This document shows positions 12,561 to 48,516 of a DNA stretch of 64,000 nucleotides, in pieces. The notes beneath the pieces were generated by a model. The model was not told the DNA's origin. It did not search any database and was given only the letters and a program-made list of their open reading frames with translations. This DNA is from Azadirachta indica. Taxonomy: Eukaryota > Streptophyta > Magnoliopsida > Sapindales > Meliaceae. The stretch is taken from assembly GCA_022749755.1 (NCBI GenBank), contig CM040452.1:22954773-23018772 (forward strand). The letters run 5' to 3'. Each line of letters opens with the position of its first letter. The first letter of the stretch is position 1. The translations under genes and the position numbers were made by a program.

Positions 12561-12564
12561 GGAG

Positions 12565-16633: not shown

Positions 16634-16639
16634 AGTTTT

Positions 16640-17019: not shown

Positions 17020-17067
<48 letters not shown>

Positions 17068-19517: not shown

Positions 19518-19532
19518 CGTGCTGATAAACCG

Positions 19533-20717: not shown

Positions 20718-20979
20718 ACTTTACTTTTTGAAATCATGTGCGATGCTAGCGATTATGCTGTTGGAGCTGTTTTAGGACAACGAAAGGACAAGAAACCCTA
20801 TGTGATTTACTATGTTAGTAAAACCTTAAATAGTGCTCAAATGAATTATTCTACCACTGAAAAGAAATTACTTGCAGTAGTATTTGCATTGGATAAATTT
20901 CGATCTTATCTTATTGGCTCACCCATTGTGATTTTTAGTGATCATGCAGTATTAAAATATCTTCTCTCAAAAAAGGATG
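20718..20979 (+). pseudogene. pol: C RNase H N-terminal part (left copy), cut at the gap
   Basis: MCDASDYAVGAVLGQRKDKK and YSTTEKKLLAVVFALDKFR are standard RNase H blocks, and the frame stays open to KYLLSKKD at the first N. In the right copy two indels (31036 and ~31185) break this stretch, so the left version is the better guide to the frame. Confidence 0.85.
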
Positions 20980-21079
20980 NNNNNNNNNNNNNNNNNNNNN
21001 NNNNNNNNNNNNNNNNNNNNNNNNNNNNNNNNNNNNNNNNNNNNNNNNNNNNNNNNNNNNNNNNNNNNNNNNNNNNNNN
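20980..21079. other. Assembly gap, exactly 100 N
   Basis: A run of 100 N, the conventional size for a gap of unknown length. Sequence on either side overlaps by ~10.1 kb (see 10866-20979 and 21080-31193). Confidence 0.99.
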
Positions 21080-21270
21080 ATTTCTTGAATTGTATTTAAA
21101 TCACACATCTTTGTAATTAGTCCATTTAAGGTACTTTCCAATGTCTTGGCTCTAGCTCTGACAATCGGTCCACTCGGCACGCTTAGCGAATCATATAGAT
21201 TCTGTAATTGAGTATCTCCAACCTTATGTCTGAGGTTCTCCTCTTGTTTACATGGTTGCACAACTTCGTT
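21080..21270 (-). repeat. A3 LTR, right copy (truncated by gap)
   Basis: Matches 10866-11056 and ends with the same CAACTTCGTT junction to the C-LTR stub and D. Confidence 0.9.
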
Positions 21271-22773
21271 ACAACCTATAAAGTTGAGACAACCTATACT
21301 TGGGAGTTACAAGTGCAACTTCAAACTTATTCTCCATTTCTTCCTACAAATAAGTGCTATAAACAAGTGAGTCTATACAATCAATAAAAGAACACTTATC
21401 TTTAGTAGAAATAGAAGGAATTGATAAAGAATCAAACACTTTATATTGGACAGTTTCTCCCAATATTGTCATTGATAGCCTCCCATTTTGGACATCAATA
21501 ATTGTGTTGGTAGTTGCCATGAATGGTCTACCAAGAAGAATTTATGCTCTTTGTCCTTTGAGGGTGTTCCTTCCATCTCCAAAACCACAAAGTCCACTGG
21601 TACAATGAGCTTGTCTACTTGCACCAACAAATCTTCAATTATTCCCTTTGGATATTTAACTGACTAATCCGCAAGTTGAAGTGTCATAGTTGTAGGCTTA
21701 AGCTTCCCTAAACCTAGTTGCAAGTATATAGAGTATGGCATTAGATTACTACTTGCTCCCAAGTCTAGCATGGCTTTAGCTATGTTCTTATCTCCCATAG
21801 TTATGTTTATGTTGAAACTTCCAGGATCTTTCAATTTTGGAGGCAAATTTTGTTGAAGCACTGCACTGGCAACTTCTGAGACCATGACTTTCTCATTCTT
21901 CTCATATCTTCTCTTTTTGGTGTTAAGTTCCTTGAAAAATTTTTCATATGATGGTATATTTCTAATAACATCCAAAAGAGGTAAGTTAATATCAACCTTA
22001 GAAAGCATCTCAAAAATCTCAGAAAATTATTTATCTTGCTTATTTTCTCTTAAACGGTGCGGATAAGGAATTTGAGGCCTATAAGGCTCGGTTGCCTTAT
22101 GAAAGGATGGAGTAGAAGCTGAATCCTTCTCTTCGCTCTTCTCAGAATGCTTAGAAGGTTGGGGATCTTTAGCTTGTTCTTCTTTGGAAACTTCTTGCTC
22201 CCCATTTTCTGCATCAAGTGGTAAATCATTAGAATTTTCATTATCAAAATGTTTGTTAATAATTTTACCACTCCGTAAGACTGTAACAGCTTTCGCTTGC
22301 TTGGGTTGGCTAGGTAGCTTTCCTTTTTGATGTCCTTGCATGTGTTCTGAAAGTTGCCCAACTTGCATTTTTACCGTCTTCATAGATGTTTTTAAGGAAT
22401 CTAACCTTTGACTATATCTCTCATGGTTTTCTTTACTGACTTGAATGAAGGTGTTCAAGCTCTCCTCTAATGTTGATCTTCTAGGTTGTTCAGGTGACAT
22501 TTTTTGGATTTGATGTTGAATTGGCCTTGAGTTTTGAGCATATGTTGGATTGTTATTAGTCTTCGAAGAGAAATTCGGATGATTTCTCCAACTTAGGTTA
22601 TGTGTTTGCAAAACAATCATGTCTTGACCTAGGTTGGTAAGACTCCATCAAATTAGCTTGTTCTTGTTCACCACCTATGTAAGAATCACAAGGCAAAGAA
22701 CAAGTGTTAACATTATGCCCATAAATACCACAAATTCCACATACCTTATGAGTTGGCTGGTTATTAGTCGTAA
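21271..22773 (-). pseudogene. gag: D gag-protease fragment, right copy
   Basis: Same content as 11057-12560. Here the gag half is a single 197-codon ORF (22620-22027, LSWRNHPNFSS to LRENKQDK), because the extra T of the left copy is absent. The protease ORF (22008-21664) keeps DLGASSNLMPYS. The C-LTR stub lies at 21271-21315 and the zinc knuckle near 22748-22703. Confidence 0.8.
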
Positions 22774-22777
22774 GGAG

Positions 22778-25410
22778 TTTGACTTGAAAAAGGATTTCAA
22801 ATCGAGACGAGCCATATATTTTGTTACTCAGCATCGCATAAGGATCATTGCGATGCATTTTAATTTGTAAACAAAGAAGTTGATTATACAAGTTTTTCAA
22901 GGTTGGAATTGTTGAATGCCAAAAGTATGTGAAAAATGATTTCAATTCGAGACAAGCTGCACATTTTGTTACTCAGCATCATGTGACAGATTGAAAAAAT
23001 GATTTCGAAGCCGGAATTGTCAAACGCGAAACAAACTCAAAAAACGAATCCAATTCAAGATGGGTTACACGTCTTGCTACTTAGCATCGCGTGAGGATCA
23101 TTACGGTGAATTTTTTTTTAAAAACGGGAAAGTTGAAAATGTCCAATTTTCAGTGCTATAATTGTCAAATGCAAAACGGGCTCAGAAAATAATTTTAATT
23201 CGAGACGAGCCATGTCTTGTTATTTAGCATCGCGTGAGGATCGTTGCATTACATTTTAATTTGAAAATGGAGAAGTTGAAAACAAACAATTTTCTAGGGC
23301 AGAACTGTCAAACGCTGAAAGTACGAGAAAAACAATTTCAATTCGAGACGGGCCACAATCCTATTACTCAGCATCGTGTAAAGATCGTTAGGATGCATTT
23401 TAATTCGAAAACGGAGATATTTAAAATATACGATTTTCAAGGCTTAAATTGTCAAACGTGAAAAGTCCTCGAAAAATGATTTCAATTCGAAACGGGCTGC
23501 ACATCTTGTTACTTAGCATCACGTGAGGATCATTGCGGTAAATTTTAATTCAAAAACAGAGATGTTGAAAAAATAATATTTTTGTGGTCGGAATTATCAA
23601 ATGCCACAAGTACGTGAAAAATGATTTCAATTTGAGACAGGCCACACGTCTTGTTAGTCTTGTTACTTAGTATCACGTGAGGATCATTGCAGTATCTTGT
23701 AAATCAAAAATAAAGATTTTAAAAACGGTCGATTTTCAAGGTTGGAATTGTCAAAAGCAAAACGGACTCGAAAAATGATTTCAATTCAACATGCAACACA
23801 CGTCTTGTAACTCAGCATTGCATGATGATCATTACAATGTATTTTATTTCGAAAAACGGAGAAGTTGAAAACGTGCGATTTTTGATCTAGAATCGTCAAA
23901 TGTGAAACAGACTCGGAAAACAATTTCAATTCGAGACGGGTCACATATTTTGTTACTCAGCATTGTGTACAAATTATTATGATGTATTTTAATTTGAAAA
24001 CGGAGAAGTTGATTATATAAGATTTTCGCAATTGGAATTGTCAAATGCCAAAAGTATGCGGAAAACAATTTTACTTTGAAAAGGGCAGCACATTTTGTTA
24101 CTCAACATCGTGTGAGGATCATCGTGCTGCCTTTTAATTTGAAAACAAAGGAGTTGAAAATGTTTGATTTTTGGGGCCGGAATTGTCAAATGCAAAATGG
24201 ACTCAAAAAATGAGTTCAATTCTAGACGGACCACAGATCTTGCTACTCAACATCGCTTGAGAATCCTTATGGTGTATTTTATTTTGAAAAACGGAGAAGT
24301 TGAAAAAGTGCGATTTTTGGGGCGGAATTGTCAAACGGGGAATGGACTCGAAAAATGATTACAATTCGAGACGTGCCACTCATCTTGTTACTCAGCATTG
24401 CATAAAGATCAATGCTGTGCCTTTTAATTTGAAAACAGAGAAGTTAATAAATGTGCGATTTTTGAGGGCTGGAATTGTCAAACGTGAAACAGATTCAAAA
24501 AACGATTTCAATTCGAGGCAGGCCACACATCTTGTTACTCAACATCATGTAAGGATCGTTGTGTTGTCTTTTAATTCGAAGATGAAAATGTTCATTTTTC
24601 GGGACCGTAATTGTTAAACGCAAAATGGACTGGAAAAACAATTTCAATTCGAGACGGGGCAGCTCATCCTGCTGCTCAGCATCACGTGAAGATTATTACG
24701 GCATATTTTATTTCAAAAAACGGAGATGTTGAAAATGTTTGATTTTCGGGGCCGAAATTGTGAAACGTGAAAATTGTTCAAAAAACGATTTCAATTCGAA
24801 ACAGGTCACGTATCTTATTACTCAGCATCGTGTGAGGATCATTGTGGTGCCTTTAAATTTGAAAATAGAGAAGTTGAAAATGTACGACATTCGGAGTTAG
24901 AATTGTCAAACGCGAAACAAACTCGGAAATCGATTTCAATTCAAAACAGGCCATATGTCTTGTTACTTAGCATTGTGTGAGAATCGTTGTGGTGCCTTTT
25001 AATTTAAAAATAGAGAAGTTGAAAATGTACAATATTTGAGGCTAGAATTGTCAAACGCGAAATAGAATTGAAAAATGATTTCAATTCAAGACGGGTCACA
25101 CGTCTTGTTGCTCAGCGTCGTGTGTGCATAGTTGTGGTGCCTTTTAAATCGAAAATAGAGAAGTTAAAAATGTTCGATTTTCAAGGCCGGAATTGTCAAA
25201 CGTGAAACGGCCTCAAAAAACGATTTCTTTTCGAAATGAGCCACAGGTCTTGTTACTCAGTATCGCATGAGGATCGTTGCGATGCATTTTAATTTGAAAA
25301 TGAAGAAAGTGAAAACATACGATTCTTGGGGCCGAAATTATCAAATGGGAAACAAACTCAAAAAATTATTTAAATTCGAGATGGTCCACATGTCTTGTTA
25401 CTCAGCATAA
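22778..25410 (+). repeat. 145-bp tandem array, right copy
   Basis: Unit-for-unit match to 12565-15198, with a few substitutions (for example TTTAGC for TTCAGC near 23223). It ends in CTCAGCATAA, where C is inserted; CATAA (25406-25410) is the target duplication. Confidence 0.95.
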
Positions 25411-26846
25411 TGATGAATGTTTAAAAGTGAGGGTTTATAAAGAGAAATATTATGATTCACACTTAATAATGTTCTTCTATTCCCCAATAATGAAGCATAT
25501 TCCTTTATATTGAATTGTAAAACATGAATTGGACTAAATAGTTGGTTTTGCGCAGGTTTCGTATAATGAGCGTATCTTTCAATCCAAATTATCAATTCAT
25601 ACGATTCTTGGGCTGAACAAACATAAACTCATCATTTCACAACTTTGTAAGCTAAAAGTTGGACTAGTTTGAGCAATTAATGGGACGAAATTGGGCTTCA
25701 ACAGAACTCAAGTGCATCTTTGAACCAGCCCAACGTGCTTCTGTATTTGCGCCGTATCTCCCTAAATATGTAACGAAAAATTATATGCTTAGTTGATCTA
25801 GAAAGCTGAGACAGGGATCTAAATTATTTATGTTTTGTACTTTCTCAAATTTCAACTGGTCGGTTACCAAAAAGAGCTATCATTCTAAAAGGGCGGTGGA
25901 GAAATGCGACTTGAACATCTCTGCCTATTTTCAACACAACTCACGGTCTAAAATAGAAATAAGAGCGAGATATGGACCATTAGAAAGATGAGTTATCCAC
26001 CTACAACTTTGAAGAAGAATGCTTTACGAAATTCGGTGGTTTTCATGGTCAAAGATATGTTGGAAGTTGGTAGAGCGTGATTAATTGGAAATTGACCAAA
26101 TTATGTTCACACATGTGGAATGTCTTTTGTTTTACCTATATAAAGGAAGACGTGGAAGTGAGGAAGGGGATCAGTTTTGTTTCCATTTTTATTTTCTTGT
26201 TGTAATTTGAACTTTAATTAAATGATGTATTTCTAATTTCGTAATTAGGGCTAAGGGTGAACTTTTGATGATTTTATAGTTTTGTTCTTTGATCCTTTGT
26301 TTTGTTCTTCATTGTTAATCTTTTTATTGATTGAGTACTATATTTTGCAAGTGATTTTGAATTGTTAGATCACTTCTTTTGTTCTTTGTGCTTAAATGTG
26401 TTGTTTTCATCATCCAATTAAGATCACTTCTTTTGATTCTTACATATCAAGAGTAAGACAATTTATAGTTTTTAACCATCAACTAAAAGGTAAGTCTTTT
26501 GATTTCTTTGTGCTTAAATGTTTTCTTTATCATCCAAGTAAGATCACTTCTTTTGATTCTTAATTGTGTTTTTTTTTAAAAAAAAAAGAAGATCAAGAAT
26601 AAATTCTATATAAATCATTAAAATGGATCCCTAATGTCCTAGTATATAATAATATTGAATTTAAATTTGACAATAAGCAAATTCACTCCATTTCTCATAA
26701 TATTGGAATATTTGGACTTGTAATATTTAGACATTTGGACTTGTGGACTTAATATAACATATTCCCTGTGGACCGACATTCGGACTTCCAAACTTTATTA
26801 CTTGAGACAACCTATACTTGAAAATTACAACCTTTAAATTGTAGCA
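25411..26846 (+). repeat. C 5' LTR
   Basis: 1436 bases, TGATGAATG to GTAGCA, TATA box at 26137-26144. Minus-strand ORFs here are chance. Confidence 0.93.
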
Positions 26847-26852
26847 AGTTTT

Positions 26853-26870
26853 TGGTGCCGTTGCTGGGGA
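26853..26870 (+). promoter_or_regulatory. C primer-binding site, tRNA-Asp type
   Basis: TGGTGCCGTTGCTGGGGA, identical to the left copy, six bases inside the LTR. Confidence 0.75.
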
Positions 26871-27232
26871 GTATGGTTTGTTTACTAGTTCTTGTTTAAT
26901 TTTCTTTTATTAACTTTAACCTCTAACTCTAACTCTAACTTTAACATTTTTTTTTATTTACTTGTTGTTATTTATTTTTATTGGGAGGCTCAGCTGCCCA
27001 TTTATATTTACATTATGGTTGGTCCTACATATACCACCTAATTTTTGTTGTTCATTTTGTTCATGGTAAGCTTAGCCACCTTTCTTAATTTTTTTTCTAT
27101 TACGTATTGTGTTGTTATTTTTATTTACAATAATTTTATTAAGAGGAAGGTTATACCACCTCTTTTCTTTTTTTATTTCTTTTATTGTGCTAACATTTTA
27201 TTTTATTGTATTTTACTTTATTGTGTTTTTTA

Positions 27233-27270
<38 letters not shown>

Positions 27271-27385
27271 TATTATGCTTGGATGGTATCGTGATCCTCA
27301 TTCTCATCGATTGGTGAAAGGTAATTCTGAAACCTCTTTTGAAAATTTGTTTGATTCATTTTCAAATTCACACACAACTAATACT
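26871..27385 (+). other. C leader with TTA microsatellite
   Basis: T-rich, with a (TTA)n run at ~27232-27276 that is shorter than in the left copy and interrupted by TATATT. An upstream in-frame MLGWYRDPHSHRL could extend gag to 27275, but MAENESI at 27386 is a better start. Confidence 0.6.
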
Positions 27386-28981
27386 ATGGCTGAAAATGAA
27401 AGTATACATGGAGAAAATGAAAATCATCATGTTCGAACTATGCGTGAATATTTGCAACCTCCTCGAAATTCATCTCCTTCATGCTTTATTTTTCTGCTTA
27501 ATGCAAATAACTTCAGATTTAAGCCCGGTATGATTCCTTTACTTCCTAATTTCCATGGCTTAAAGTCTGAAAGTCCTTATTTGCATTTGAAAGAATTTAA
27601 GGAAGTATGTGCCACATTTATGGATCAAACATATAGTGAAGAAATAATTAAGCTAAAATTGTTTCCTTTTTCTTTAAAAGATAAAAGAAAAACATAGCTT
27701 AATTCATTAAGACCTAGATCTATAGGCACATGGCAAGAAATGCAAACCAAGTTTTTAAAGCAATTTTTTCCAATACATAAAACGAATCTTTCAAGAGACA
27801 AATTTAAAATTTTTGTCAAAAAGGAAATGAAACCTATTTTCAATGTTTGGAAAGATTTAAAAACTTGTTGAATTCATGACCACACCATGGTTTTGAAAAA
27901 TGGCGTACGATAAGTTTCTTTTATGAAGGTTAACACTAGAGACAAAATAATTTGTTGAAACAATGTGTAATGGTGAATTTTTAGACAAAAACCCAGAAGA
28001 AGCTTTAGAGTATTTAGATCATTTAGCTGAGAACTCTCAATCCTGGCAAACCACTAGTTCTTCTGAAAATTCAATTAGATCTAATATGGCTAGTTCTAGT
28101 GGGGGTAAATATAATTTGAGTCAAGAAGATATTCTAAGTGCTAGAATTACAAATTTAACGAGAAAGATTGAAGCCATGAAATTAAGGAAAGTTAAAGAGG
28201 TCAAATCTGTGCATAATGATAAACTTTGTGAAATTTGTGAAGTCATGGGACATTCCACTCAAGATTGTCCAAATTTTCCTATTTTTAAAGAAGTGTTGCA
28301 TGACCAAGCAAATTCTATGAATTCCTTCAAAAAGCCTTTTTCCTCTAATTCTCCATATTCTGAAACATACAATCCTAGATGGAGAAATCACCCAAATTTT
28401 AATTGGAAAAATGATAATCATGCCCATCGACTACCTCAAAGACCTTCAAATTTTCCACCATACCATTCACCACATTTGAAAACTCTTGAGGAAACGTTGC
28501 AAACATTCATGCAAGGGCAAACAAGCATAAACAATCAAACATCACAAGCCATTAATGATATCAAGAATACACTTTCAACATTGACCTCAACTTTGTGTAG
28601 TCAAGAGAAAGGTAAATTTCCTGCTCAACCACAACCAAATCTAGCGGGTCAATTTCATGTAAGTGATTCTAACTCAAATGGCACACAACACGAGAATGCC
28701 AACTCCATCACTACTCTCCAAAGTGGTAAGGTCATTGATAAAACCATTTCTTTGAAAGAGATTGAACCTAAAGAATCATCAAAAAATTAGTGAGTGAGGA
28801 AAATAATGTTGAACCTAAGATGTGTGATGTTAAAAAATGCCCTATCCCTGCTCCTTTTCCTCAAAGATTCCAATCAATTCAAAAGTTGAACCAAAATTCT
28901 GAAATTTTTGAACTTTTTAAGCAAGTCAAAATTAACATTCCTTTGTTAGATGCAATTAAATAAGTTCTTTCTTATGCCAAA
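27386..28981 (+). pseudogene. gag: C gag
   Basis: Open from 27386 to a TAG at 27695-27697 (in place of Trp), then readable in the same register as LNSLRPRSIGTWQEMQTKF. ORF 27963-28790 (275 codons) holds MCNGEFLDKNPEEALEYLDH, the CCHC knuckle CEICEVMGHSTQDC and TTLQSGKVIDK. Two extra A at ~28785 break the frame compared with the left copy; the rest (NSEIFELFKQVKINIPLLDA) follows to 28981. Gag would form the capsid-like particle and bind element RNA through the knuckle. Confidence 0.85.
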
Positions 28982-29731
28982 TTTTTAAAAGATTTATGAA
29001 CTGTTAAAAGGAAGCTTAATGTTCAAAAGAAAGCATTTTTAACTGAAAAAGTTAGTTCGATTATTCAATATAACACTCCACCAAAATATAAAGATCCTAG
29101 TTGTCCCACCATTTCTTGTGTAATTGGAAATTTTAGGATAAACCATACTTTACTTGATCTTGGTGCAAGTGTTAATTTGTTGCCATATTCAGTGTATGAG
29201 CAATTAGGTTTAGGTGAGCTTAAACCTACTTCTACAACACTTCAACTTGCTGATCGTTCTGTGAAAATATCACGAGGAATACTTGAGGATGTGTTAGTTC
29301 AAGTAAATAAATTTTACTTTCTTGTAGATTTTATTGTCTTACACACACAACTTGTTTTTAGCTCAAGCACCCAAATTCCTGTCATATTAGGACGTCCATT
29401 TCTTACTACATCTAATGCAATAATCAATTGTAAAAATGGAGTTCTAAAATTATCCTTTGGAAACATGACATTGGAAATGAATGTGTTTAATATTTGCAAG
29501 CAACCTAGTGAAAATGATGACATGTATGAAGAAGTTAGTTATATTGAGGAGCTCGTTCATGACTACTTTAATGTTTCATCTTTTTCTAATCCCTTGGATG
29601 CTTGTTTAAATGGTTACAATGATTTCAATTTTGATGAAAATTTTGAAGTGTCTCATATTTATTCTCTTTTAAAATCTTCTCAGGTTTTGGAAGTTAATGG
29701 ATGGAGATCAAAATTTGAAGACTTACCTTAA
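28982..29731 (+). pseudogene. pol: C protease region
   Basis: DLGASVNLLPYSVY spans 29157-29198, and ORF 29177-29731 (184 codons) continues with GELKPTSTTLQLADRSVKIS and VILGRPFLTTSNAIINCKNG. It has one codon more than the left copy (GAA near 29529). Protease would cut Gag-Pol into working proteins. The 5' part is in another frame. Confidence 0.8.
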
Positions 29732-29746
29732 CGTGCTGATAAACCG

Positions 29747-30930
29747 ATGCCATCGAGTGTTCAACCATCAAAACTTGAATTGAAACCATTACCATCTGAC
29801 CTCAAGTATGCTTTCTTGGGTGCTAATGAAACTTTTCCGGTGATAATTTCTTCTAAACTCAGTGCTCTTCAAGAATGTAAGTTGTTCGAAATTCTAAAAT
29901 TGCATAAACATGCTTTAGGATGGACAATAGCTGACATAAAAGGAATTAATCCTTTGATTTGCACACATAAGATATATTTGAAAGATAATGCCAAATCATC
30001 TAGACAAATGCAACGTAGGCTAAATCTTAATATGAAGAGGTAGTGAGAAATGAAGTTTTCAAGTTTTTAGATGTAGGGATCATTTATCCTATTTCTGATA
30101 GCATATGGGTAAGTCCTACACAAGTTGTACCTAAGAAATCTTGAGTTATTGTATTCAAAAATGAAAATAATGAATTAATTCCAACTAGAACAATTACTGG
30201 CTGGAGAATGTGCATTGACTATAGGAAACTCAATTCAATAACTAGGAAAGATCATTTCCCGTTACCATTCATGGATCAAATGTTAGAAAGGGTAGCTGGA
30301 CATTCATTTTATTGTTTTCTAGATGGGTATTCTGGGTATAACCAAATTGAAATTGCACCTGAAGACCAAGAAAAGACCACTTTCACTTGTCCATTTAGAA
30401 CTTTTGCATATAGAAGGATACCATTTGGATTGTGTAATGCACCAGCTACATTTTAAAGATGCATGCTTAGTATTTTTAGTGATATGGTTGAACGATTTCT
30501 TGAAATTTTCATGGATGAGTTTTCTGTTTTTGGTGTTTCATTTGAGGATTGCTTATCTAACTTGGAAAAAGTTTTAATTAGGTGTGAAGAAAAGAATCTT
30601 GTGCTTAATTGGAAAAAATGTCATTTCATGGTCACAAATGGTATTGTGTTTGGTCACATTGTCTCATCAAAAGGAATTGAAGTAGATAAATCTAAAATTG
30701 AATTAATTGCCAATTTACCTGTTCCTAAGTCTGTTAAAAATGTTAGATCATTTTTAGGATATGCTGGTTTTTATAGGAGATTTATCAAAGACTTTAGTGT
30801 TATATCAAGACCATTGTGCAATCTCTTATTAAAAGATGCTCTCTTTGAGTGGACTCAGTCATGTCAAGAAGCTTTTATCGACTTTAAAACCATGCTAACA
30901 TCTGCTCTTATCATGCAGCCTCCGAATTAG
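29747..30930 (+). pseudogene. pol: C reverse transcriptase
   Basis: Blocks in order: SDLKYAFLGANETFPVIISS, GWTIADIKGINPLICTHKIY (frame lost at 30035, one A fewer than the left copy), MCIDYRKLNSITRKDHFPLP, DGYSGYNQIEIAPEDQEKTT, IPFGLCNAPATF with TAA at 30454-30456, and VERFLEIFMDEFSVFG. The second catalytic Asp is Glu here as in the left copy. ORF 30463-30930 continues through the thumb ([20 protein letters not shown]). Athila assignment rests on the CEEKNLVLNWKKCHFMV and SKGIEVDKSKIE blocks. Confidence 0.87.
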
Positions 30931-31335
30931 ACTTTACTTTTTGAAATCATGTGCGATGCTAGCGATTATGCTGTTGGAGCTGTTTTAGGACAACGAAAGG
31001 ACAAGAAACCCTATGTGATTTACTATGTTAGTAAACCTTAAATAGTGCTCAAATGAATTATTCTACCACTGAAAAGAAATTACTTGCAGTAGTATTTGCA
31101 TTGGATAAATTTCGATCTTATCTTATTGGCTTACCCATTGTGATTTTTAGTGATCATGCAGTATTAAAATATCTTCTCTCTCAAAAAGGATGCTAAACCT
31201 AAATTGATTAGGTGGATTCTACTACTTCAAGAATTTGATCTCACAATTCAAGACAAAAAAGGAGTACAAAATGTGGTTGCTGATCACTTGTCAAGACTTA
31301 TGTTTGAAGAATCGATTGAGACAACACCGATTAAT
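30931..31335 (+). pseudogene. pol: C RNase H
   Basis: MCDASDYAVGAVLGQRKDKK at 30949 onward; a one-base loss at ~31036 and two extra bases at ~31185 shift the frame. The C-terminal block readable from the bases is a [16 protein letters not shown] end near 31266-31305, the usual close of gypsy RNase H. Confidence 0.8.
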
Positions 31336-32700
31336 GACAATTTTCCTGATGAGCAACTTTTCAATGTTTCTATTTTACCTTGATTTGCTGATATTGTCAA
31401 TTTTCTTGTTACAGGTCAAATGCCAAATCATTGGAATGCTCAAGATAAAAAGAAATTTTTAAGGGAGGTACGCAATTTCTTTTGGGATGATTCATATCTT
31501 TTCCAATATTGCCCTGACCAAATTATAAGGAGATGTCTACCAAACAATGAAAATCAAAATATCATTTCTTTTTGTCATTCCGAAGCATGTGGTGGTCATT
31601 TTTCTTCAAAGAAAACTGCTGCGAAAATATTGCAATGTGGATTTTATTGGCCCACCTTATTTAAAGACAAAAATACATTTTGTAAAACATGTGACCATTG
31701 TCAAAAATTAGGTGAAATAACTCGTAGAAACATGATGCCATTAAATCCTATTTTAGTCATTGAAATATTTGATTGTTGGGGTATTGATTTTATGGGTCCT
31801 TTTCCATCTTCTTTTGAATATCAATACATTTTAGTTGGAGTTGACTATGTTTCAAAATGGGTAGAGGCAATTTCTTGCAAAAATAATAATCATAAAATTG
31901 TTTTGAAATTTTTAAAAGAAAACATTTTTTCAAGATTTGGAGTGCCTCGAGCCATAATAAGTGATAGAGGTTTACATTTTTGTAATAAGCCTTTTGAGAA
32001 TTTAATGAAAAAATATAGAATTACACATAAAGTTTCAACCCCTTATCACCCACAAACAAGTGGACAAGTTGAACTTGCCAATAGAGAAATAAAACATATT
32101 TTTTGAAAAAACGGTAAAGCCGAATCGTAAGGATTGGTCTTTAAGACTAACCGATGCACTTTGAGCTTATCGAACTGCTTTTAAATCATCACTTGGCATG
32201 TCTCCTTATAGACTTGTTTTTGGAAAGGCTTGTCACCTACCGGTGGAATTAGAACATAAAGCTTTTTGGGCCATTAAAATGCTTAATTTTGACTTAGATA
32301 AAGCAGGATCATTGAGAAAACTCCAAATAGATGAACTTGAAAAAATTAGGAATGAAGCTTACGAGAATTCTAGAATTTACAAAGAGAAAATGAAGGTGTT
32401 TCATGATAAACATATTATTAGAAAATCATTTGAACCTTTACAAAAAGTTCTTTTGTATGATTCAAGATTGCATCTATTTCCTGGCAAACTTTGCTCAAAA
32501 TGGAGAAGTCCCTTCATTGTTAAGAAGGTTTACCCACATGGCGCTGTTGAAATTGAGAACCCCAAAAATGGTAATGTTTTTAAAGTTAATGGACACAGTT
32601 TAAAGCCATTCTTTGAGAATTTTCCAAGCGAGTTAGAGTTTATCACTTTGAATGAACCTGTTTACAACACTGGATTATTTTTTTTTTTGTATATACATTA
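31336..32700 (+). pseudogene. pol: C integrase
   Basis: ORF 31420-32106 (228 codons) contains the HHCC zinc domain (HSEACGGHF then CKTCDHC), the first catalytic Asp in WGIDFMGPF, the second in IISDRGLHF and the Glu in SGQVELANREIK, so D,D,E is complete. One extra T at ~32100 and a TGA at 32161 (expected Trp in DAL.AYRTAFK) break it, and ORF 32198-32776 supplies the C-terminus: [40 protein letters not shown] and [13 protein letters not shown]. No chromodomain is seen. The true end is probably shortly after 32680, beyond which the ORF reads low-complexity Phe/Tyr. Confidence 0.87.
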
Positions 32701-32872
32701 CTTGTTTTCTTGTGTTATTAATTTTATTGATTCCATTGTTTGTTTTCAGTTATTTTGCCGGTCAAGTGGCGGATAACGGTACTCCGTGACTCTTTAAGTC
32801 GGTTCTTTTAGTTACCCAAAATTACTGATACAATTTTTTTTCTCACTTCTTTTTCTGTTCTTTTCTTTCATT

Positions 32873-33160
32873 ATGGATGTCATTCTTTCTAGATTGCAAA
32901 CATATTTTCCTTCTTTTTCTAAAGATGTTATACGAAAAATGTACCAATCTAGGTGTGCAAGATTAAGAATGCTTATGCAAAAAGGTATTCCTGAAGATGT
33001 GCAATGGATAATTGAAGCAAAGGTACGTTTAGCAGGTGAGTTTTCTGATTCATTTGTTTCACGCATGCCTGGTTTAGGTAAGAGCTCTTTTGCAAAGAAA
33101 CGAAGAGCGAAAAGGTTACAAGTGTGTCACAATTGTGCATGTTCAACCTGTAACAAGTGA
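32873..33160 (+). CDS. Small basic Cys-rich protein, resembles viral nucleic-acid-binding proteins (N-terminal part)
   Basis: 95 codons from ATG 32873 to TGA 33158-33160. Residues 1-65 look helical and charged; residues 70-81 are KSSFAKKRRAKR, directly followed by Cys85, Cys88, Cys90 and Cys93. A Gly/Ser-rich lead-in, a basic RRA core and a CxxC pair is the signature I associate with the small 3' nucleic-acid-binding proteins of carlaviruses and relatives (Pfam Viral_NABP); this is recognition by motif, not alignment. The gene stands alone between integrase and the LOG-family gene, in the slot of an env-like ORF. A TTTGTTTTCAG acceptor-like site at 32739-32749 could give it a spliced mRNA. 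The TGA is in frame with the ORF at 33176. Confidence 0.45.
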   Translation: MDVILSRLQTYFPSFSKDVIRKMYQSRCARLRMLMQKGIPEDVQWIIEAKVRLAGEFSDSFVSRMPGLGKSSFAKKRRAKRLQVCHNCACSTCNK

Positions 33161-33421
33161 TGTCGTTCTCTAGGCATGGTGTCTACTAATAGAGAAGATA
33201 AAATTAAATTCATTAAGGATGGACTGAGTAAGGAGTCTTTAGATAATATCTTATTGACTCTTGAGACGCATCCTAGTGGATATGTGCAACGTGAAATTCT
33301 CAATTTGTATACATTATTTCAAAAAGAACGTGATCGTTATAGTCTTGGGAATCTGACTTTAAAAGACCCTGTTTGCCAATTTATAAGAAAATTGGATGGG
33401 AAGCCAATCCTCGACCCATAG
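33161..33421 (+). pseudogene. In-frame continuation of the Cys-rich ORF after a TGA
   Basis: The same frame continues after the TGA with a further Cys codon at once, then MVSTNREDKIKFIKDGLSKE (ATG 33176) to a TAG at 33419-33421, 81 codons from the ATG. The absence of a frame change suggests one ancestral ORF of ~182 codons broken by a single nonsense change, or readthrough. KIKFIKDGLS resembles the post-zinc region of the same viral family, weakly. The last ~50 residues match nothing I know. Part of this sequence recurs in decayed form at 34628-34690. Confidence 0.4.
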
Positions 33422-33724
33422 AGGGCGTTTAAGCCGTTACTAAACGTAAAATCAGAGGAAGATGTGAGTCACAATCACAACTATCTATAAATATTTACTT
33501 TTAGCCGTCATTGTTGAAATTTTTATGTTTTAGATTCCTATATTAGCTGTTATCTTTGACATTTTTACATTTTTAAATTTTAACTTTTATGACAACAGCT
33601 AGCTTACCTCTATTGGTTTCATTAATACATTCTCTTTAAGTTGTATAAATGCAAGACCTCACTTCTTTATTTTCATACAAAATTTGAATCACTGACGAGG
33701 GTAAAAGACTGCAAAAAAAAAAAA
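33422..33724 (+). promoter_or_regulatory. Spacer upstream of LOG-family ORF, possible promoter or leader
   Basis: About 300 bases with stops in all frames. TATAAATA at 33486-33493, ~230 bases before the LOG start, could be a TATA box brought in with the captured gene or chance in AT-rich DNA. A poly-A tract (33713-33723) directly precedes the start codon. An in-frame ATG at 33641 would add 28 residues that do not look like the family. Confidence 0.3.
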
Positions 33725-34375
33725 ATGGAAGGAGCTTCTATTCATCAATTTAAAACTATTTGTGTTTTTTGTGGGTCAAGCCCTGGGAAAGGTGAAGAGT
33801 TTGTAAAAGCAACGGACAACCTAGGTCGAGTTTTAGCTGAGCGAAAACTTAACCTAGTGTATGAAGGAGGTAACCTTGGGTTAATGGAGTGTGTGTCAAC
33901 TGCCACACATATAGGAGGAAGTGAAGTCATAGGTATCATACCAAAGACTTTATCTGCAGGTAACATAACTGGCAAAACAGTTGGAGAAGAACTAATGGTC
34001 TCAACAATGCATGAAAGAATTGCTAAAATGCTTGATTCTGCAGATGCTTTTATTGCCTTACCAGGTGGTTTTGGAACCTTAGAAGAAATTTTTCAAATTG
34101 CATCTTGGGCACAACTAATCGTTCATAAAAAACCCATAGAATTGTTAAATGTTAATAGTTTCTTTAACAAGTTGTTGTCTTTTCTTGATCATATTGTAGA
34201 ACAGAATTTTATTTCACAGATGGCTCGCAAACTCCTCATTTCTGCTCCGACTGCTAATGACTTGATAAATCAGTTGCAGAACTTTGTCCATGAACCAGAT
34301 CCAACAATGGCACGATTCGAATGGTCAAGTGAAAGCAGTAAAAAGCGAAAGCTGGACTTGTCACTTCATTTGTAA
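33725..34375 (+). CDS. LOG: LOG-family cytokinin riboside 5'-monophosphate phosphoribohydrolase, captured by retrotransposon C
   Basis: Intact, intronless ORF of 216 codons. LOG enzymes release active cytokinin bases from their riboside monophosphates in the cytosol and nucleus. Visible family blocks: ICVFCGSSPGK (12-22), NLVYEGGNLGLM (43-54; the family normally has YGGG, here YEGG), GIIPKTL (70-76), MHERIAKM (95-102; catalytic-type Arg98 kept, the usual following Lys is Ile), DAFIALPGGFGTLEE (107-121, the PGGxGTxxE motif with Glu121) and LLNVNSFFNKLLSFLD. The length is normal for LOG. I prefer ATG 33725 over 33641 because the family starts a few residues before the F.ICVFCGS strand. The C-terminus has KKRK (206-209) and LDLSLHL (210-216), resembling a nuclear signal plus an EAR-type LxLxL. 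Host LOG genes have several introns, so cDNA capture is likely. Activity is untested, and the YEGG change may matter. Confidence 0.88.
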   Translation: MEGASIHQFKTICVFCGSSPGKGEEFVKATDNLGRVLAERKLNLVYEGGNLGLMECVSTATHIGGSEVIGIIPKTLSAGNITGKTVGEELMVSTMHERIAKMLDSADAFIALPGGFGTLEEIFQIASWAQLIVHKKPIELLNVNSFFNKLLSFLDHIVEQNFISQMARKLLISAPTANDLINQLQNFVHEPDPTMARFEWSSESSKKRKLDLSLHL

Positions 34376-35516
34376 CTTTTCTTATCTTTTTTTTACCACT
34401 CATTGCATTTTGTTATTTTTTTTTTTCTTTTAGTTATTTTTGTTTAAGTTTGTTTCAGGTTTTACTTGTGTTTCAATAACTACTATCTTAGGCAATATTC
34501 TCTATACTGTACCTTTTTACATTTAAACATTGGGGACAATGTTGCAATCTGGTTGGGGGGAGTGTAGTCGACATAAGTAACCATTTTTTTTTATATAAAA
34601 CTAAAAAAAAATAGATTCATAATTTGTAAGGATGGTAGAGTAAAGAGTAATCTTACTCCTGAGACATATCTTAGTAGATATGCATTATCATTTGTTTTGA
34701 TTTTTGAATTTCATAACAAAGAATTTATCATTCACTTTCTTTTGAATTGATCAAATATACGAACTCTCACATCATCATCACGTAATAAATTCTGCTCAGA
34801 TACTCAATCAGTAAAATATTTATAAACCATCTTTCACACACACACTTTGATACATGATTGTGGATGACATATTGAAATTTTACAATATTTGAGCTCTTTA
34901 ATTTTGTCAAAGGTAGCAACTAAGGGTTTAAAAAAAAAAATCTCCAAAAATAATAATAATAAAAAAAAAAAAGTTAAAAACAAAATAAATAAGTAAAAAT
35001 TATAATCAAAACTTTTACTTAGTAACCAGGCTTCTTGCCTAATCAACAGTGAATGTTCGCGTAAAACGGTAAAATTTTGATATGAATAAGTTCATAGCCT
35101 TAACTCGAGTAATTAAGCCCATAGAGGTGTTTTAATACCCTAAGGCCAATTGGCTAAGAGTTATTGGCCCAAAGCTCGCTACATGAGTTAGGTTATGCAC
35201 AAAAAAAAAAAAATGGAAATAGAAATAATCTTTGCCCAAAGAAGTTTACCTTGACAAAATTTAGAACCGATGTTGTTTGATTCTAATTAAGTCCCATAAC
35301 ATGTATTAGTTACAAAAGCACAAAAAGAAGGTTTATTAATAATTTGACTGATGAGTATTTGACACATATATAGTAAATTTTTAAGCGAGAGTTTGTTTAT
35401 TTTGAGAAGATGAAAAGGAAAAGAATGATTTTTACTTTGAATGTAAATTCTATAAATCAACTCTAAATGGTATTGCTTATATTACTAGGGACTAGTAATA
35501 AGCTGGTTGGGGGGTG
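34376..35516 (+). other. C 3' noncoding region with two purine tracts
   Basis: AT-rich, no convincing ORF. At 34530-34565 TTGGGGACAATGT is followed by CTGGTTGGGGGGAG, the arrangement seen downstream of pol in Athila/Tat elements. A second tract, CTGGTTGGGGGGTG (35503-35516), directly precedes the 3' LTR and is the functional polypurine tract by position. Between them, 34628-34690 is a decayed partial repeat of 33215-33290. Confidence 0.65.
35503..35516 (+). promoter_or_regulatory. C polypurine tract
   Basis: CTGGTTGGGGGGTG immediately before TGATGAATG of the 3' LTR; start site for plus-strand DNA synthesis by analogy with other LTR elements. Confidence 0.75.
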
Positions 35517-36930
35517 TGATGAATGTTTAAAAGTGTAGGTTTATCAAGAGAAATATTATGATTCACACTTAATAATGTTCTTTTATTCCTCAATAATGAA
35601 GCATATTCCTTTATATTGAATTGTAAAACATGAATTGGACTAAATAGTTGGTTTTGCGCAGGTTTCGTATAATGAGCGTAACTTTCAATCCAAATTATCA
35701 ATTGATACGAGTCTTAGGCTGAACAAACATAAACTCATCATTTCACAACTTTGTAAGCTAAAAGTTGGACTAGTTCGAGCAATTAATGGGACGAAATTGG
35801 GTTTCAACAGAACTCAAGCGCATCTTTGAACCAGCCCAACATGCTTTTGTATTTGGGCCGTATCTCCCTAAATATGTAACGAAAAATTATATGGTTAGGT
35901 GATTTAGAAAGCTGAGAAAGGGATCTACATTGTTCATGCTTTGTACTTTCTCAAATTTCAACTGGTCGGTTACCAAAAAGAGCTATCATTCTAGAAGGGC
36001 GGTGGAGAAATGCGACTTGAATATCTTTGACTATTTTCTACACAACTCACAGCCTAAAATAGAAACAGGAGCGAGATATGGACCATTAGAAAGATGAGTC
36101 ATTCACCTACAACTTTGAAGAAGGATGCTTTATGAAATTCGGTGGTTTTCATGGTCAAAGATATGTTGGAAGTTGGTAGAGTGTGATTAATTGAAAATTG
36201 ACCAAATTATGTTCACACATGTGGAATGTCTTTTGTTTTACCTATATAAAGGAAGATGTGGAAGTGAGGAAGGGGACCAATTTTGTTTCCATTTTTATTT
36301 TCTTGTTGTAATTTGAACTTCAATTAAATGATGTATTTCTAATTTCGTAATTAGGGTTAAGGGTGAACTTTTGATGATTTTATAATTTTGTTCTTTGATC
36401 CTTTATTTTGTTCTTCATTGTTAATCTTTTTATTGATTGAGTACTATATTTTGCAAGTGATTTTGAATTGTTAGAAATCTTGATTCATTGTTAACAAATG
36501 GTACATTGAATGCTTGAATATTTTTTACATATCAAGAGTAAGACAACTTATAGTTTTTAACCATCAACTAAAAGGTAAGTCTTTTGATTTCTTTGTGCTT
36601 AAATGTGTTGTTTTCATCATCCAATTAAGATCACTTCTTTTGATTCTTAATTGTGTTTTTCTTTAAAAAAAAAGGATCAAGAATAACTTCTATACAAACC
36701 ATTAAAATGGATCCCTAATGCCCTAATATATAATAATATTGAATTTAAATTTGACAATAAGCAAATTCACTCTATTTCTTATAATATTGGAATATTTGGA
36801 CTTGTAATATTTAGACTTTTGGACTTGTGGACTTAATATAACATATTCCTTGTAGACCGACACTCGGACTTTCGAACTTTATTACTTGAGACAACCTATA
36901 ATTGGGAGTTACAACCTTTAAGTGGTAGCA
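35517..36930 (+). repeat. C 3' LTR
   Basis: 1414 bases, TGATGAATG to GTGGTAGCA, TATA box 36243-36250. It differs from the 5' LTR by scattered substitutions and by lacking one of the GATCACTTC-type internal repeats near 36480. CATAA follows. Confidence 0.93.
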
Positions 36931-37145
36931 CATAACGTGAAAATCGTTGCTGTACCTTTTGATTTGAAAACGGAGAAGTTGAAAATGTTTGATTTTCGAG
37001 GGCCATAATTGTCAAATGCGAAACTGACTCGAAAAATAATTTTAATTCAAGACGAGCCACATGTTTTATTAGTCAACATCGCGTGAGGATTGTTGTAGTA
37101 CCTTTTATTTAAAAAATGAAGAAATTGAAAATGTTCGATTTTGGG
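36931..37145 (+). repeat. 145-bp array, right-hand remnant (~1.5 units)
   Basis: CATAACGTGAAAATCGTTGC continues the unit interrupted by C (units normally read CATCACGTGAGGATCATTGC), followed by one full unit and part of another ending at TTCGATTTTGGGGC. Confidence 0.9.
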
Positions 37146-37567
37146 GCTAAATCTGGAGTTCAAAATGTTGTAGTCACTGCACTATGCCAAAAACATTGCT
37201 TACTATCCGCAATACAAGTAAAAGTCATAGGTTTTGAAGTCGTGAAAGACCTGTACGTAAAAGATCCAAACTTCAACATCAAAAATGAAAGTCAAGGATG
37301 GTCGGAATGTAAAGATCATCCTTGCAAATAATTCTTGCAGCATGATGGCTATCTCTTTAAGAAAGGATATTTTAGGAGAAATACGATGCTTGTTCTAGTG
37401 GAAGGAAAATGTTATCGGCACAAGATACAAAGGGACATGATAAAACATAAGCAACAACATCAAAAATGTCACCTTGCAAGCCATGGTGAGAATTTTGGTT
37501 TTGAGTTTGTGAAAAACCGAAACGCGAGAAACAACAATCTCAAGCCATTTCAGAGAATTAGATATTG
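37146..37567 (+). pseudogene. pol: E-like pol fragment: RNase H/integrase junction region
   Basis: ORF 37116-37331 contains a GFEVVKDLYVKDPNF stretch, the block that precedes the integrase zinc domain in CRM-like pols (compare [16 protein letters not shown] in A4), then a stop and HDGYLFKKG. It ends with NRNARNNNLKP, also present at the 3' end of E (1500-1545 minus). A minus-strand C fragment starts directly after it, so this is a rearranged scrap. Confidence 0.6.
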
Positions 37568-39931
37568 GAGAAATGATATTTTGAATTTTATTGTTATGTA
37601 CACATCTTCTTATAATTTGGTCAGGGCAATATTTGAAAAGATATATATCATCTCAAAAGAAATTGCGTACCTCCCTTAAAAATTTCTTCTTATCTTGAGT
37701 ATTCCAATAATTTGGCATTTGACCTGTAACAAGAAAATTGACAATATCAGCAAATCAAGGTAAAGCTAAAATACTTAAAAGTTGCTCATCAGAAAAATTG
37801 TCATTAATTGGTGTTATCTCAATTGGTTCTTCAAACATAAGTCTTGATAAGTGGTCAGCAACTACATTTTATACTCCTTTTTTATCTTGAATTGTGAGAT
37901 TGAATTCTTAGAGTAGTAGGATCCACCTAATCAATCTAGGTTTAGCATCCTTTTTGGAGAGAAGATATTTCAATGCTGCATTATCACTAAAAAATGACAA
38001 TGGGTGAGTCAACAAAATAAGATCTAAATTTATCCAATGCAAATACTATACAAGTAATTCCTTTTCAGTAGTAGAATAATTCATTTGAGCACTATTTAAG
38101 GTTTTACTAGCATACTAAATCACATAATGTTTCTTGTTCTTTCGTTGTCCTAAAACAGCTCTAACAATATAATCGCTAGCATCACACATAATTTCAAAAG
38201 GTAAAGTCCAATCTGGAGGCTACATGATAAGAGCAGACATTAGCATGCTTTTAAGTTTAACAAAAACTTATTGACTCAGACCACTCAAAGAGAGCATCTT
38301 TTAATAAGAGATTATACAACGGTCTTGATATAACACTAAAACTTTGATAAATCTCCTATAAAAACATGTATGTCTTAGAAATGATTTAACATCTTTGACA
38401 GACTTAGGAATAGGCAAGTTGGCAATTAATTCAATTTTATATTTATCTACTTCAATTTCTTTTGATGAGACAATGTGACCAAGCACAATATTATTTATGA
38501 CCATGAAATGACATTTTCCGAATTAAGCACGAGATTTTTTTCTTCACACCTAATTAAAATTTTTTCCAAGTTAGATAAACAATCATCAAATGAGTTACCA
38601 AAAACAGAAAAATCACGCATGAAAGTTTCAAGAAATCGTTCAACCATATCACTAAAAGTACTAAGCATACATATTTGAAATGTAGCTGATGCATTAGACA
38701 ATCCAAACGGTATCCTTCTATATGCAAAAGTTCCAAATGGGCAAGTAAAAGTGGTTTTTTCTTAGTCTTCAAGTGCAATTTCAATTTGGTTATACTTAGA
38801 ATACCCATTTAGGAAACAATAAAATGCATGTCCAGCTAACTTTTCTAACATTTGATTCATGAATGGTAACAGAAAATGGTTTTTCCTAATCATTGAATTG
38901 AGTTTCTTATAGTCAATGCACATTCACCAGCCAATAATTGCTCTAGTTATAATTAATTAATTATTTTCATTTTTTACTACAGTAACTCTAGATTTCTTAA
39001 GTATCACTTGAGTAGAATTTACCCATGTGCTATCAGAAATAGGATAAATGATTCCCACATCTAAAAGCATGAGAACTCCATTTCTAACTACCTCTTTCAT
39101 ATTAAGATTTAGCTTACGTTGTATTTATCTAGATGACTTGGCATTATCTTTCAAATATATATTATGTGTACAAATTAAATGATTAATTTCTTTTATGTCA
39201 GATATGGTCCATCCTAAGACATGTTTATGCAATTTTAGAATTTCAAACAACTTACATTCTTGAAGAGTATTGAGTTTAGAAGAAATTATCATTGGAAAAA
39301 TTTCATTAGCACCCAAAAAAGCATACTTGAGGTCAGATGGTAATGGTTTCAATTCAAGTTTTGGCGGTTAAACACTTGATGGTGTCGGTTGATCAGCATG
39401 TTGAGGTAAGTCTTCAAATTTTGGTCTCCATCCATTAACTTCCAAAACCTGAGAAGATTTTAAAAGGGAATAAATATGAGACACTTTAGAATTTTCATCA
39501 AAATTGAAATCATTGTAACCATTTAAACAAGCATCCAAGGGATCAAAAAAAAAGATAAAACATTAAAGCAATCATGAACAAGCTACTCAATATAAATTAA
39601 CTTCATGCATGTCATCACTTTCACTAAGTTGCTTACAAATATTTAACACATTCATTTTCAATGTCATGTTTCTGAAAGATAGTTTTAGAATTCTATTTCT
39701 ACAGTTGATTATTGCATTAGATGTAGAAAAAAATAAACATCTTAGTATGACAGAAATTTGGATACTTGAGCTAGGAACAGGTTGTGTGTTTAAGACAATA
39801 AAATCAACGAGAAAGTAAAATTTATCTACTTGAATTAACACATCCTCAAGTATTCCTCGTAATATTTTCACAGAACAATCAGCAAGTTGAAGTGTTGTAG
39901 AGATGGGTTTAAGCTCACCTAAATCTAATTG
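37568..39931 (-). pseudogene. pol: Family C pol fragment: protease to integrase start, degenerate
   Basis: On the minus strand 39931-39587 encodes LDLGELKPISTTLQLADCSV and further protease sequence; 39352-39125 the GANEIFPMIISSKL region; 38808-38301 the RT (CLSNLEKILIRCEEKNLVLN, catalytic block FMRDFSVFG). RNase H follows to ~37850 and integrase begins before the break at 37568. Many stops; no gag, LTR or cargo gene. It is more diverged from C than the two C copies are from each other. Confidence 0.85.
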
Positions 39932-47204: not shown

Positions 47205-48056
47205 TGATGCAAATACGGATGGACACAAGAGCAATGATCCAATTCAGCTACCTAATGGTCCCGTTACAAGAGCAAGAATGAAGAAATTCAAAGATGCATT
47301 GAATGGGATGATTCAAGGTTTTTGGGATGATCTTACAACAATTCAAGAGTGTAAGAAAGAGTCAAATATCAAGCTTGGACTTCAAGACAATAATCAAAGC
47401 TTGGTAACATTGACACAAGTACAAGAAGGCAAAACCTGAAGATTAAAGTTTCCACGGAATTCAACTTCTCAAATTTGTATAAGAGCATATTCGAACGATG
47501 TCTCAAGGCTAAGCAAGCATGTTCAAGTTCTTTTAATTGCAGTTCGAATCAGATCGTCATCATGATGCAAGTTTCAGATTCCATGTGCCAGTTTGGGCTA
47601 AGTTGCTGTTCAAGCCCATCATCTATTTTAGTCTTATTTATAAACATATATTTATAATTTGTTATGTGTTTGGGCTGTTAATGGTAATTATTAAGCCCAA
47701 ATTCAGTTTATTTTATTTTAAGTTAGAATAAGTTTAATTTTGTGGCCAAACACTCTAATTAGGGTTACTTATCTCTTGTACCCTTATATATTCAGCCACA
47801 TGCTCCCATGGAGGGGGAATTACTTTTTTTTTTTAATGAAATTAAATTGAGAGTGTTTTCTCTTATTTTGATTCTTACTTGAATCAAGGTTCTTACAATC
47901 AAAGCTAATTACTTTGAGGGTATTTATTCTAAGGTTCTATTTCACAAGTTGAAATTGGGTTGCAGACTTGGGTGAATCTGATTTAGCTTTCCAAGAAGTT
48001 GCTTCCATGCGTAAAGATATTGGGTCTCAAGTTTAATATACTCGGGGTTCGTATCA
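47205..48056 (+). repeat. B 5' LTR
   Basis: 852 bases, TGATGCAAATACGG to GGGGTTCGTATCA. The first ~235 bases are an open frame (NGPVTRARMKKFKDALNGMI to QVQEGKT) that completes the polyprotein when read from the 3' LTR. CCCTTATATATTC near 47780-47792 may be the TATA region. Confidence 0.95.
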
Positions 48057-48059
48057 GTT

Positions 48060-48071
48060 TGGTATCAGAGC
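48060..48071 (+). promoter_or_regulatory. B primer-binding site
   Basis: TGGTATCAGAGC, initiator Met tRNA type, three bases inside the LTR. Confidence 0.85.
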
Positions 48072-48448
48072 TACGGCTCTAAATCAGGTTATATAGTCTT
48101 TCAAATTTGTCTATTTGTTTATTTAGTTTCTGAGTCTAATTTATTTTTGTTTTTGTGTCTATTATATCAAAAAAAAAAAAAAAGAGGGTTTCCTTTTCAA
48201 TTCACAGCAAGTCAAGTTTGGGTTGTATCAATCTCTAATTCGGTTGATTTAGTCTTTGTCTATTCGTTTCTTTTCTGTTTGTTTCTATTTATTTTTGTTT
48301 GGTCACTCCTATGTGTTTGGAGGTAAAAAAAAAAAAAAAAAAGGGAGAGAAAAGCAAAGCCTTTGGCCAAGAGAAGAAAAAAATAAAAAAAAAAAAAAAA
48401 AAAGGGAGAGAAAAGCAAAGCCTTTGGCCAAGAGAAGAAAAAAAAAAA

Positions 48449-48516
<68 letters not shown>

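Follow-up and report, generated by a model that had tools for sequence, protein, structure and literature searches.

LOG-family domains have already been described in plant retrotransposons. A YgdH (LONELY GUY) domain has been reported in consensus sequences of Ty3/gypsy elements from Citrus sinensis and C. clementina and, with a looser filter, from Populus trichocarpa, in a paper that also cites Steinbauerova et al. (2011) (PMC9289625). A Ty3/gypsy element of Phalaenopsis with an AlkB/2-ODD m6A demethylase is likewise a case of a host enzyme that was captured and kept, and in vitro activity has been shown for that enzyme; the available text of the paper places it in two Phalaenopsis genomes only and mentions no EAR-like tail (PMC9289625). 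Athila and other plant LTR elements similarly carry an extra ORF in sense orientation between pol and the 3' LTR, and these extra ORFs are heterogeneous and mostly without known domains, the words cytokinin and YgdH being absent from the available text of all three sources (PMC6317226, PMC7264820, PMC11963269).

The locus described here shares with the Citrus and Populus elements a LOG-family domain within a plant Ty3/gypsy element, and Populus proteins fall within the clade recovered in the present analysis, for which the sequence set was one without Citrus sequences. The available part of PMC9289625 only lists the YgdH domain, whereas the position, phylogeny, selection, pocket and tail come from the present analysis. 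The presence of LOG in Ty3/gypsy elements is thus already published; what appears new is the remodelling of the pocket and the NLS/EAR-like tail, no earlier account of either having been found in a literature sample made up mostly of titles and the beginnings of abstracts, with few subscription journals or preprints.

The window, by which is meant the whole stretch of 64,000 nucleotides of Azadirachta indica DNA that was analysed, contains an element of 11,520 bp (25411-36930) in which both LTRs are present, CATAA lies on either outer side and a LOG gene is placed between the integrase and the 3' LTR. Its features are as follows, in window coordinates.

25406..25410, no strand: left target site duplication, CATAA (read from sequence)
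25411..26846, + strand: 5' LTR (TGATGA...TAGCA), 92.4% identical to the 3' LTR
26853..26870, + strand: primer-binding-site-like TGGTGCCGTTGCTGGGGA, adjoining the 5' LTR (read from sequence)
27206..28960, + strand: gag region, interrupted, with open pieces at 27206-27697 and 27963-28790 (protein matches)
29177..29731, + strand: open piece of the protease region (by position; no Pfam match)
30463..30930, + strand: reverse transcriptase piece (PF00078, 24.1 bits, under the curated cut-off of 29.6)
31420..32106, + strand: integrase, H2C2 zinc finger and rve core (PF00665, PF17921)
32198..32776, + strand: integrase C-terminal region (by position; no Pfam match)
33725..34375, + strand: LOG-family ORF, 216 aa, intronless (open-frame scan, profile and structure matches)
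33863..33865, + strand: G47E, a near-invariant glycine of the YGGGSLGLMG loop lost (alignment of copies)
33887..33889, + strand: G55E, second glycine of the YGGGSLGLMG loop lost (alignment of copies)
34340..34372, + strand: C-terminal tail KKRKLDLSLHL, a K/R cluster and LxLxLxL (tail comparison)
35505..35516, + strand: polypurine-tract-like, G-rich stretch ahead of the 3' LTR (read from sequence)
35517..36930, + strand: 3' LTR (self-comparison, read from sequence)
36931..36935, no strand: right target site duplication, CATAA (read from sequence)

By its LTRs, target site duplication, gag, reverse transcriptase and an integrase downstream of the reverse transcriptase, the element belongs to Ty3/gypsy. 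The gap between the reverse transcriptase piece and the integrase is short and could hardly accommodate an aRH domain; this gap apart, the element is called Athila-type on its motifs, and TGGTGCCGTTGCTGGGGA at 26853..26870 is a putative Athila-type primer-binding site. The two LTRs are separated by a K2P distance of 0.073 over 1412 aligned sites, which, with 1.3e-8 or 7e-9 substitutions per site per year, gives an element age of about 3 or 5 Myr, and the window copy is an old, decaying insertion.

The LOG frame at 33725-34375 is translated without a stop, and its product is matched by PF03641 in a Pfam profile search (E 8.8e-40, 136 bits against a cut-off of 27) and by TIGR00730 (171 bits, curated cut-off 96). 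Its closest PDB entry is At2g37210/LOG3 (E 7e-62), and an AlphaFold model built from 33 sequences (mean pLDDT 83.8) is matched by Foldseek to 2a33 (E 5.8e-23). The motifs CGSS, MHER and PGGFGTLEE are present, and the combination that marks the LOG family, PGGxGTxxE with a catalytic Arg and Glu, is found with R98 and E121. The element LOG and plant LOGs (AtLOG3, AtLOG8, LOG7-like) are alike in fold, in PGGxGTxxE and in the catalytic Arg and Glu; the element LOG differs from them in being intronless and mobile, in its changed pocket (outside Sapindaceae) and in its K/R and LxLxL tail. Position 47 is glycine in 58/79 sampled copies from the genome and position 55 in 69/79, and both loop glycines are kept in 114/114 ordinary LOGs. 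Although the frame of the window LOG is open, the protein is damaged and its activity is likely to have been lost. A run of A ahead of the ATG was set aside as a leader element and treated as slippage, its length being inconstant (1 to 16 across 74 copies).

The genome was searched for LOG over 280.8 Mb in 21 contigs, giving at least 152 LOG matches (397 candidates at first look, of which 150 were scored and 150 listed), and all such counts are lower bounds. In 20/20 stretches around LOG copies a 3' LTR follows about 1.1 kb after the LOG on the same strand, and an integrase lies upstream of the LOG in these 20 stretches (one of which, L009, is a duplicate of the window), the integrase match being shorter in L010, L012 and L028 (17-21 residues) and in L015 (the last 77). 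Approached from the integrase side, with 150 matches listed and scored of 2313 candidates and LOG positions drawn from the main LOG matches plus 26 short ones, a LOG match 0.96-2.0 kb downstream on the same strand accompanies 100 of the 111 listed integrases at 66% identity or more, a line that was set after the integrase list had been viewed. Among the LOG matches listed, none lies downstream of the integrases below 66% identity (0/39), a count that a very divergent LOG could escape, and in one sister element about 3 kb past the integrase contains no LOG match and no sense ORF above 84 aa. On this evidence LOG is a property of one element lineage, with a sister lineage that is without it; it is an extra ORF carried by the lineage, held at one position by most copies here and present in several species, where two gene models show a gag piece beside it. 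The element copies match LOG in one piece, and host-like LOG matches include short separate exons, as on one strand at C11:6170851-6170958 (89%) and C11:6172507-6172659 (90%).

These results agree with much of a first-pass annotation of the window, which had described an uninterrupted 216-aa LOG ORF with CGSS, PGGFGTLEE and MHER motifs, now confirmed by profiles and motifs, inside a complete Athila-like element bounded by LTRs and CATAA, and had attributed it to capture of a spliced LOG mRNA; the unbroken element copies set against the separate exons of host-like matches uphold that attribution, and the suggested search for LOG at the same position in other copies found it there in the 20/20 stretches and beside the 100/111 integrases among the matches listed. 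Two further observations concern the distribution of LOG sequences in the genome. A stretch of about 0.3 Mb at C7:6.62-6.93 Mb holds at least 17 LOG matches, fragments included, with several spaced 10-14 kb apart, a dense cluster of LOG elements that is perhaps pericentromeric. Intronless LOG3-like retrocopies occur at C7:771342, C7:5951041 and C5:1908254 (L089-L091), two with an open frame of 241 residues; no element context is seen in the stretches examined, and they were not counted among the element LOGs.

Element-type LOGs were found, among the protein matches listed, in Melia and Xanthoceras (Sapindales), Reevesia and Diplodiscus (Malvales), Parasponia (Rosales) and Populus (Malpighiales), with many entries each in Reevesia, Diplodiscus and Xanthoceras; the first search, of which the best 120 of 4785 matches were used, had the tailed LOG as its query, and many of its 120 matches come from two species. 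Acer (Sapindaceae) contributes element-type LOGs in the second search (best 120 of 7999), in which matches outside the element clade include LOG7-like proteins. Full-length LOG ORFs at about 53-68% identity to the window occur in several plant orders. Linkage of gag and LOG outside this genome is seen in two gene models only, both matching the gag region of the window: in Melia P0003 the gag start opens the model (84.6% over 26 residues), and an inner gag piece lies within Xanthoceras P0002 (59.5%, E 6e-10). P0003 was not accepted as a true spliced product, the first LOG residues being absent, and was kept as evidence of gag linkage. Relatives in IMG/VR amounted to 25 loci at 25-33% identity, none of them element LOGs.

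In a tree of 55 rows the 38 element-type rows form one clade (support 97/100) on a stem of 0.84 changes per site, and within it Acer and Xanthoceras are separate from a 29-row clade (99/99) of the window, Melia, Reevesia, Diplodiscus, Populus and Parasponia. The Sapindales are therefore split in the tree, Melia on one side and the Sapindaceae on the other, which points to old sublineages or to horizontal transfer. A second tree, from which the tail and pocket columns were omitted and to which P0256 was added (56 rows and 176 columns, with a bootstrap that had yet to settle), retains the element clade (39 rows, 100/100, stem 0.75), so that the clade is not a product of those columns. The non-Sapindaceae group of this tree has 30 rows (100/97) with P0256 basal, the grouping of the other 29 rows being weak (94/33), and the LOG1/LOG3 group of the 55-row tree loses support. 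No source LOG subfamily was singled out for the element clade in either tree (55 and 56 rows). The first-pass annotation had offered recent acquisition as one explanation of the clean LOG frame; a recent capture in the window is rejected by the spread of same-type LOGs through several plant orders and by their single, long-stemmed clade in both trees.

The C-terminal tail of these proteins is absent from the sampled ordinary LOGs. An LxLxL end and a K/R cluster within the last 14 residues are found in 100/120 element-type LOGs (best 120 of 4785), the 20/120 exceptions including early-ending or fused models and some with one Leu changed; terminal LxLxL was found in 0/120 ordinary LOGs, 5/120 of which have a K/R pair there and 6/120 an LxLxL elsewhere in the protein. 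Across 22 rows of less than 80% identity, L212 is kept in 21/22, L214 in 21/21, L216 in 20/21 and K207 in 20/22, with positions 213 and 215 variable, and in this genome LxLxL is kept in 67 of the 77 sampled copies with a full tail. Residues 201-209 of the tail have pLDDT below 50 in the AlphaFold model and, because of this low confidence, are probably disordered. Sapindaceae members typically end in SKKRRLA (Xanthoceras) or SKRRRLD, a K/R cluster with no LxLxL, and they keep the K/E pocket, so that neither trait is universal in the clade; P0256 has an ordinary pocket and the full tail.

The EAR consensus is LxLxL or DLNx(x)P, of which LxLxL is the commoner and mostly C-terminal (PMC9956375), and the KLDLSLHL of the window contains the LxLxL form. 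The oomycete effector HaRxL21, like the element LOG a protein of a genetic parasite with an LxLxL end, binds TOPLESS through its C-terminal EAR motif, and ten other effectors with LxLxL showed no TPL binding in yeast two-hybrid, the EAR motif alone being insufficient; binding has been shown for HaRxL21, whereas for the element LOG we only infer it (PMC7446885). The nuclear-signal role of the K/R cluster and the recruitment of TOPLESS by the tail are proposals. It is possible, if on balance unlikely, that the tail is only a nuclear localization signal, or that it aids nuclear import of the element or its choice of integration site, with no corepressor recruited. The K/R cluster does persist in those Sapindaceae members that have no LxLxL, but an LxLxLxL with variable x is strongly conserved outside Sapindaceae and is not needed by a plain nuclear signal.

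The substrate pocket differs as well. In CgLOG, catalysis has been proposed to depend on Arg99 and Glu122; Lys100 is part of both the adenine and the prenyl site and Glu125 is part of the prenyl site, and AtLOG3 and CpLOG share Met96, His97, Lys100, Glu125 and Trp129 with CgLOG (PMC4979012). CgLOG Lys100 and Glu125 correspond to positions 99 and 124 of the element LOG, and the prenyl-site residues of the window are M95, H96, I99, Q124 and W128, with the Lys and Glu of a cytokinin LOG both replaced. Among element-type proteins the catalytic R98 is present in 108/115 and E121 in 111/115 (22/22 each in dereplicated rows), whereas position 99 is I, M or L in 113/115 against K in 114/114 ordinary LOGs, and position 124 is Q or H in 110/115 against E in 114/114. 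The rows compared were limited to 170-260 residues, with P0003 omitted and Xanthoceras P0002, P0004 and P0084 among those dropped; these three dropped models have the ordinary K and E, as do most Sapindaceae-type rows of the second search and P0256, and Xanthoceras P0241 is among the members with all five proposed prenyl-site residues. As judged from the aligned residues, the pocket is remodelled in nearly all sampled members outside Sapindaceae.

It is in this light that an ordinary cytokinin-activating enzyme, which would raise cytokinin and promote division of the cells that carry the element, has to be considered. The LOG fold and family matches, the retained catalytic Arg and Glu with PGGxGTxxE, and Xanthoceras members such as P0241 with their five prenyl-site residues all speak for such an enzyme, yet the equivalents of CgLOG Lys100 and Glu125 are replaced in nearly all other sampled members, and changes to Ala at AMP-binding or catalytic residues of CgLOG nearly abolish activity, S19A excepted (PMC4979012). 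The window LOG also scores 118 bits against the cut-off of 300 for NF058542, the cytokinin-specific equivalog of NCBIfam, a miss that may say little, as no ordinary plant LOG was scored alongside for comparison. A cytokinin-raising role would moreover leave the tail without a function, and the replaced pocket residues, to which the window copy adds the loss of two glycines (G47E/G55E), appear to weaken it to the point where we regard it as rather unlikely.

Copies with an open LOG frame are common in this genome. Stop-free frames (frameshifts not counted) are found in 25/108 LOG matches that cover at least 200 residues, and 80 sampled copies, which include the window and its duplicate, leave out L044 and were in part picked for open frames, comprise 25 without a stop and 20 without a stop or frameshift. 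Compared with most copies the window shows differences of about 16:10:12 at codon positions 1, 2 and 3, with no third-position excess. When variants in 79 copies were polarised with the commonest base as the start, singleton transversions were synonymous in 36/222 (16.7% expected), transversions shared by at least two copies in 29/115 (16.7% expected), shared T-to-C/A-to-G changes in 33/60 (41.5% expected) and shared C-to-T/G-to-A changes in 53/243 (22.5% expected), the last giving no selection signal. After dereplication to 69 copies the raw counts of transversions by codon position were 84/72/80 for singletons, 25/18/26 for doubles and 7/8/14 for the rest, in which there would be a slight codon-position signal. 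On these counts copies decay neutrally once inserted, and any selection on the active lineage would have left at most a modest trace within this genome.

The clean LOG beside broken gag and pol that had been pointed to in the first-pass annotation is indeed seen, but it is not unusual among copies, and the accompanying suggestion that selection had kept the frame clean does not hold for the window: its differences are neutral, and its open frame is no sign of selection because 25/108 copies are stop-free too and the glycines at G47E and G55E have been lost. Purifying selection is therefore rejected as the cause of the clean frame in the window copy. A gene captured once and carried ever since without gain to the element would be consistent with this neutral evolution after insertion, including the synonymous share of singleton transversions (36/222 against 16.7%) and the window differences of about 16:10:12, but it is improbable, since decay free of selection would not leave, across several plant orders, full-length ORFs that are about 53-68% identical to the window and retain the catalytic residues, nor alternate Leu residues fixed in the tail between variable neighbours.

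The surroundings of the element contain several repeats of their own. A 10.1 kb repeat, 10866-20979 against 21080-31192, is 99.6% identical and flanks a 100-N gap at 20980-21079; it is probably an unmerged contig overlap, the same DNA at two contig ends, and 10866-20979 was rejected as a second element, the near-identical repeat abutting the gap. The copy at C13:10.44 Mb (L009) has a LOG 100% identical to that of the window, and 9.9 kb including flank matches at 99.47%; it was rejected as an independent insertion and is a segmental or assembly duplicate, because the match runs on through the flank. The idea that a host LOG locus became surrounded by an element through misassembly or through a separate insertion can be dismissed, for although the window contains the assembly overlap 10866-20979 versus 21080-31192, the LOG lies outside the duplicated stretch, the order integrase, LOG, 3' LTR recurs genome-wide, CATAA flanks the whole element and the LOG has no intron. 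A satellite of about 145 bp occupies 12790-15196, 23003-25408 and 36931-37149, with 16.6 copies per array; it lies on both sides of the element, which therefore landed in a satellite array. As a preferred target the satellite was not accepted, being present in 2/20 stretches (the duplicate of the window among these two), in a weak test with little flank. Directly downstream of the 3' LTR, 37569-39931 is an inverted piece of a related element, about 89% identical. Another Ty3/gypsy-type element at 47205-54423 has 852-bp end repeats 98.5% identical and long open frames of 634, 241, 184 and 264 aa, and from the identity of its end repeats its insertion is younger than that of the LOG element.

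One plausible explanation of the LOG lineage, to which we assign a probability of about 0.5, is a single capture that gave rise to a retained accessory gene, the product of which would be a nuclear enzyme with a corepressor-binding tail. The ancestor of one Athila-type Ty3/gypsy lineage would have taken up a processed host LOG mRNA between its integrase and 3' LTR, once on present evidence and before the spread through several rosid orders, and the lineage would have retained the captured LOG as an accessory gene. Translated from element RNA, this LOG would yield a nuclear enzyme of LOG fold whose nucleotide substrate is perhaps no longer a precursor of cytokinin, the tail of this enzyme would bind TOPLESS-type corepressors, and the protein might thereby damp a host transcription programme, be it one of defence, hormone response or silencing, in cells with an active element. 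From the sequence comparisons, we favour an accessory protein that is nuclear and altered in its nucleotide chemistry over a simple cytokinin maker. The fuller version, in which a host-manipulating nuclear LOG with a changed pocket and an NLS and EAR tail would recruit TOPLESS and quieten a programme that limits the element, is tentative. The window copy would on this explanation be an old insertion, decaying without selection and probably inactive.

The sequences also bear on gene annotation in other plants. P0073, P0091 and P0118 (Populus nigra, P. trichocarpa), annotated as LOGL10, have the element-type LxLxL tail, and P0073 has the element-type pocket and lies inside the element clade; all three are likely to be element copies or domesticated ones, and Populus LOGL10 annotations of element type may not be host cytokinin genes. 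What extra ORFs do for plant LTR elements is in most cases unknown; the LOG one has a fold of solved structure. One genome holds both the LOG-bearing lineage and its LOG-less sister lineage, and the order of the pocket and tail changes is readable because the basal P0256 has the full tail and an ordinary pocket. The benefit of an extra ORF to a retrotransposon is here testable with one protein and one short peptide.
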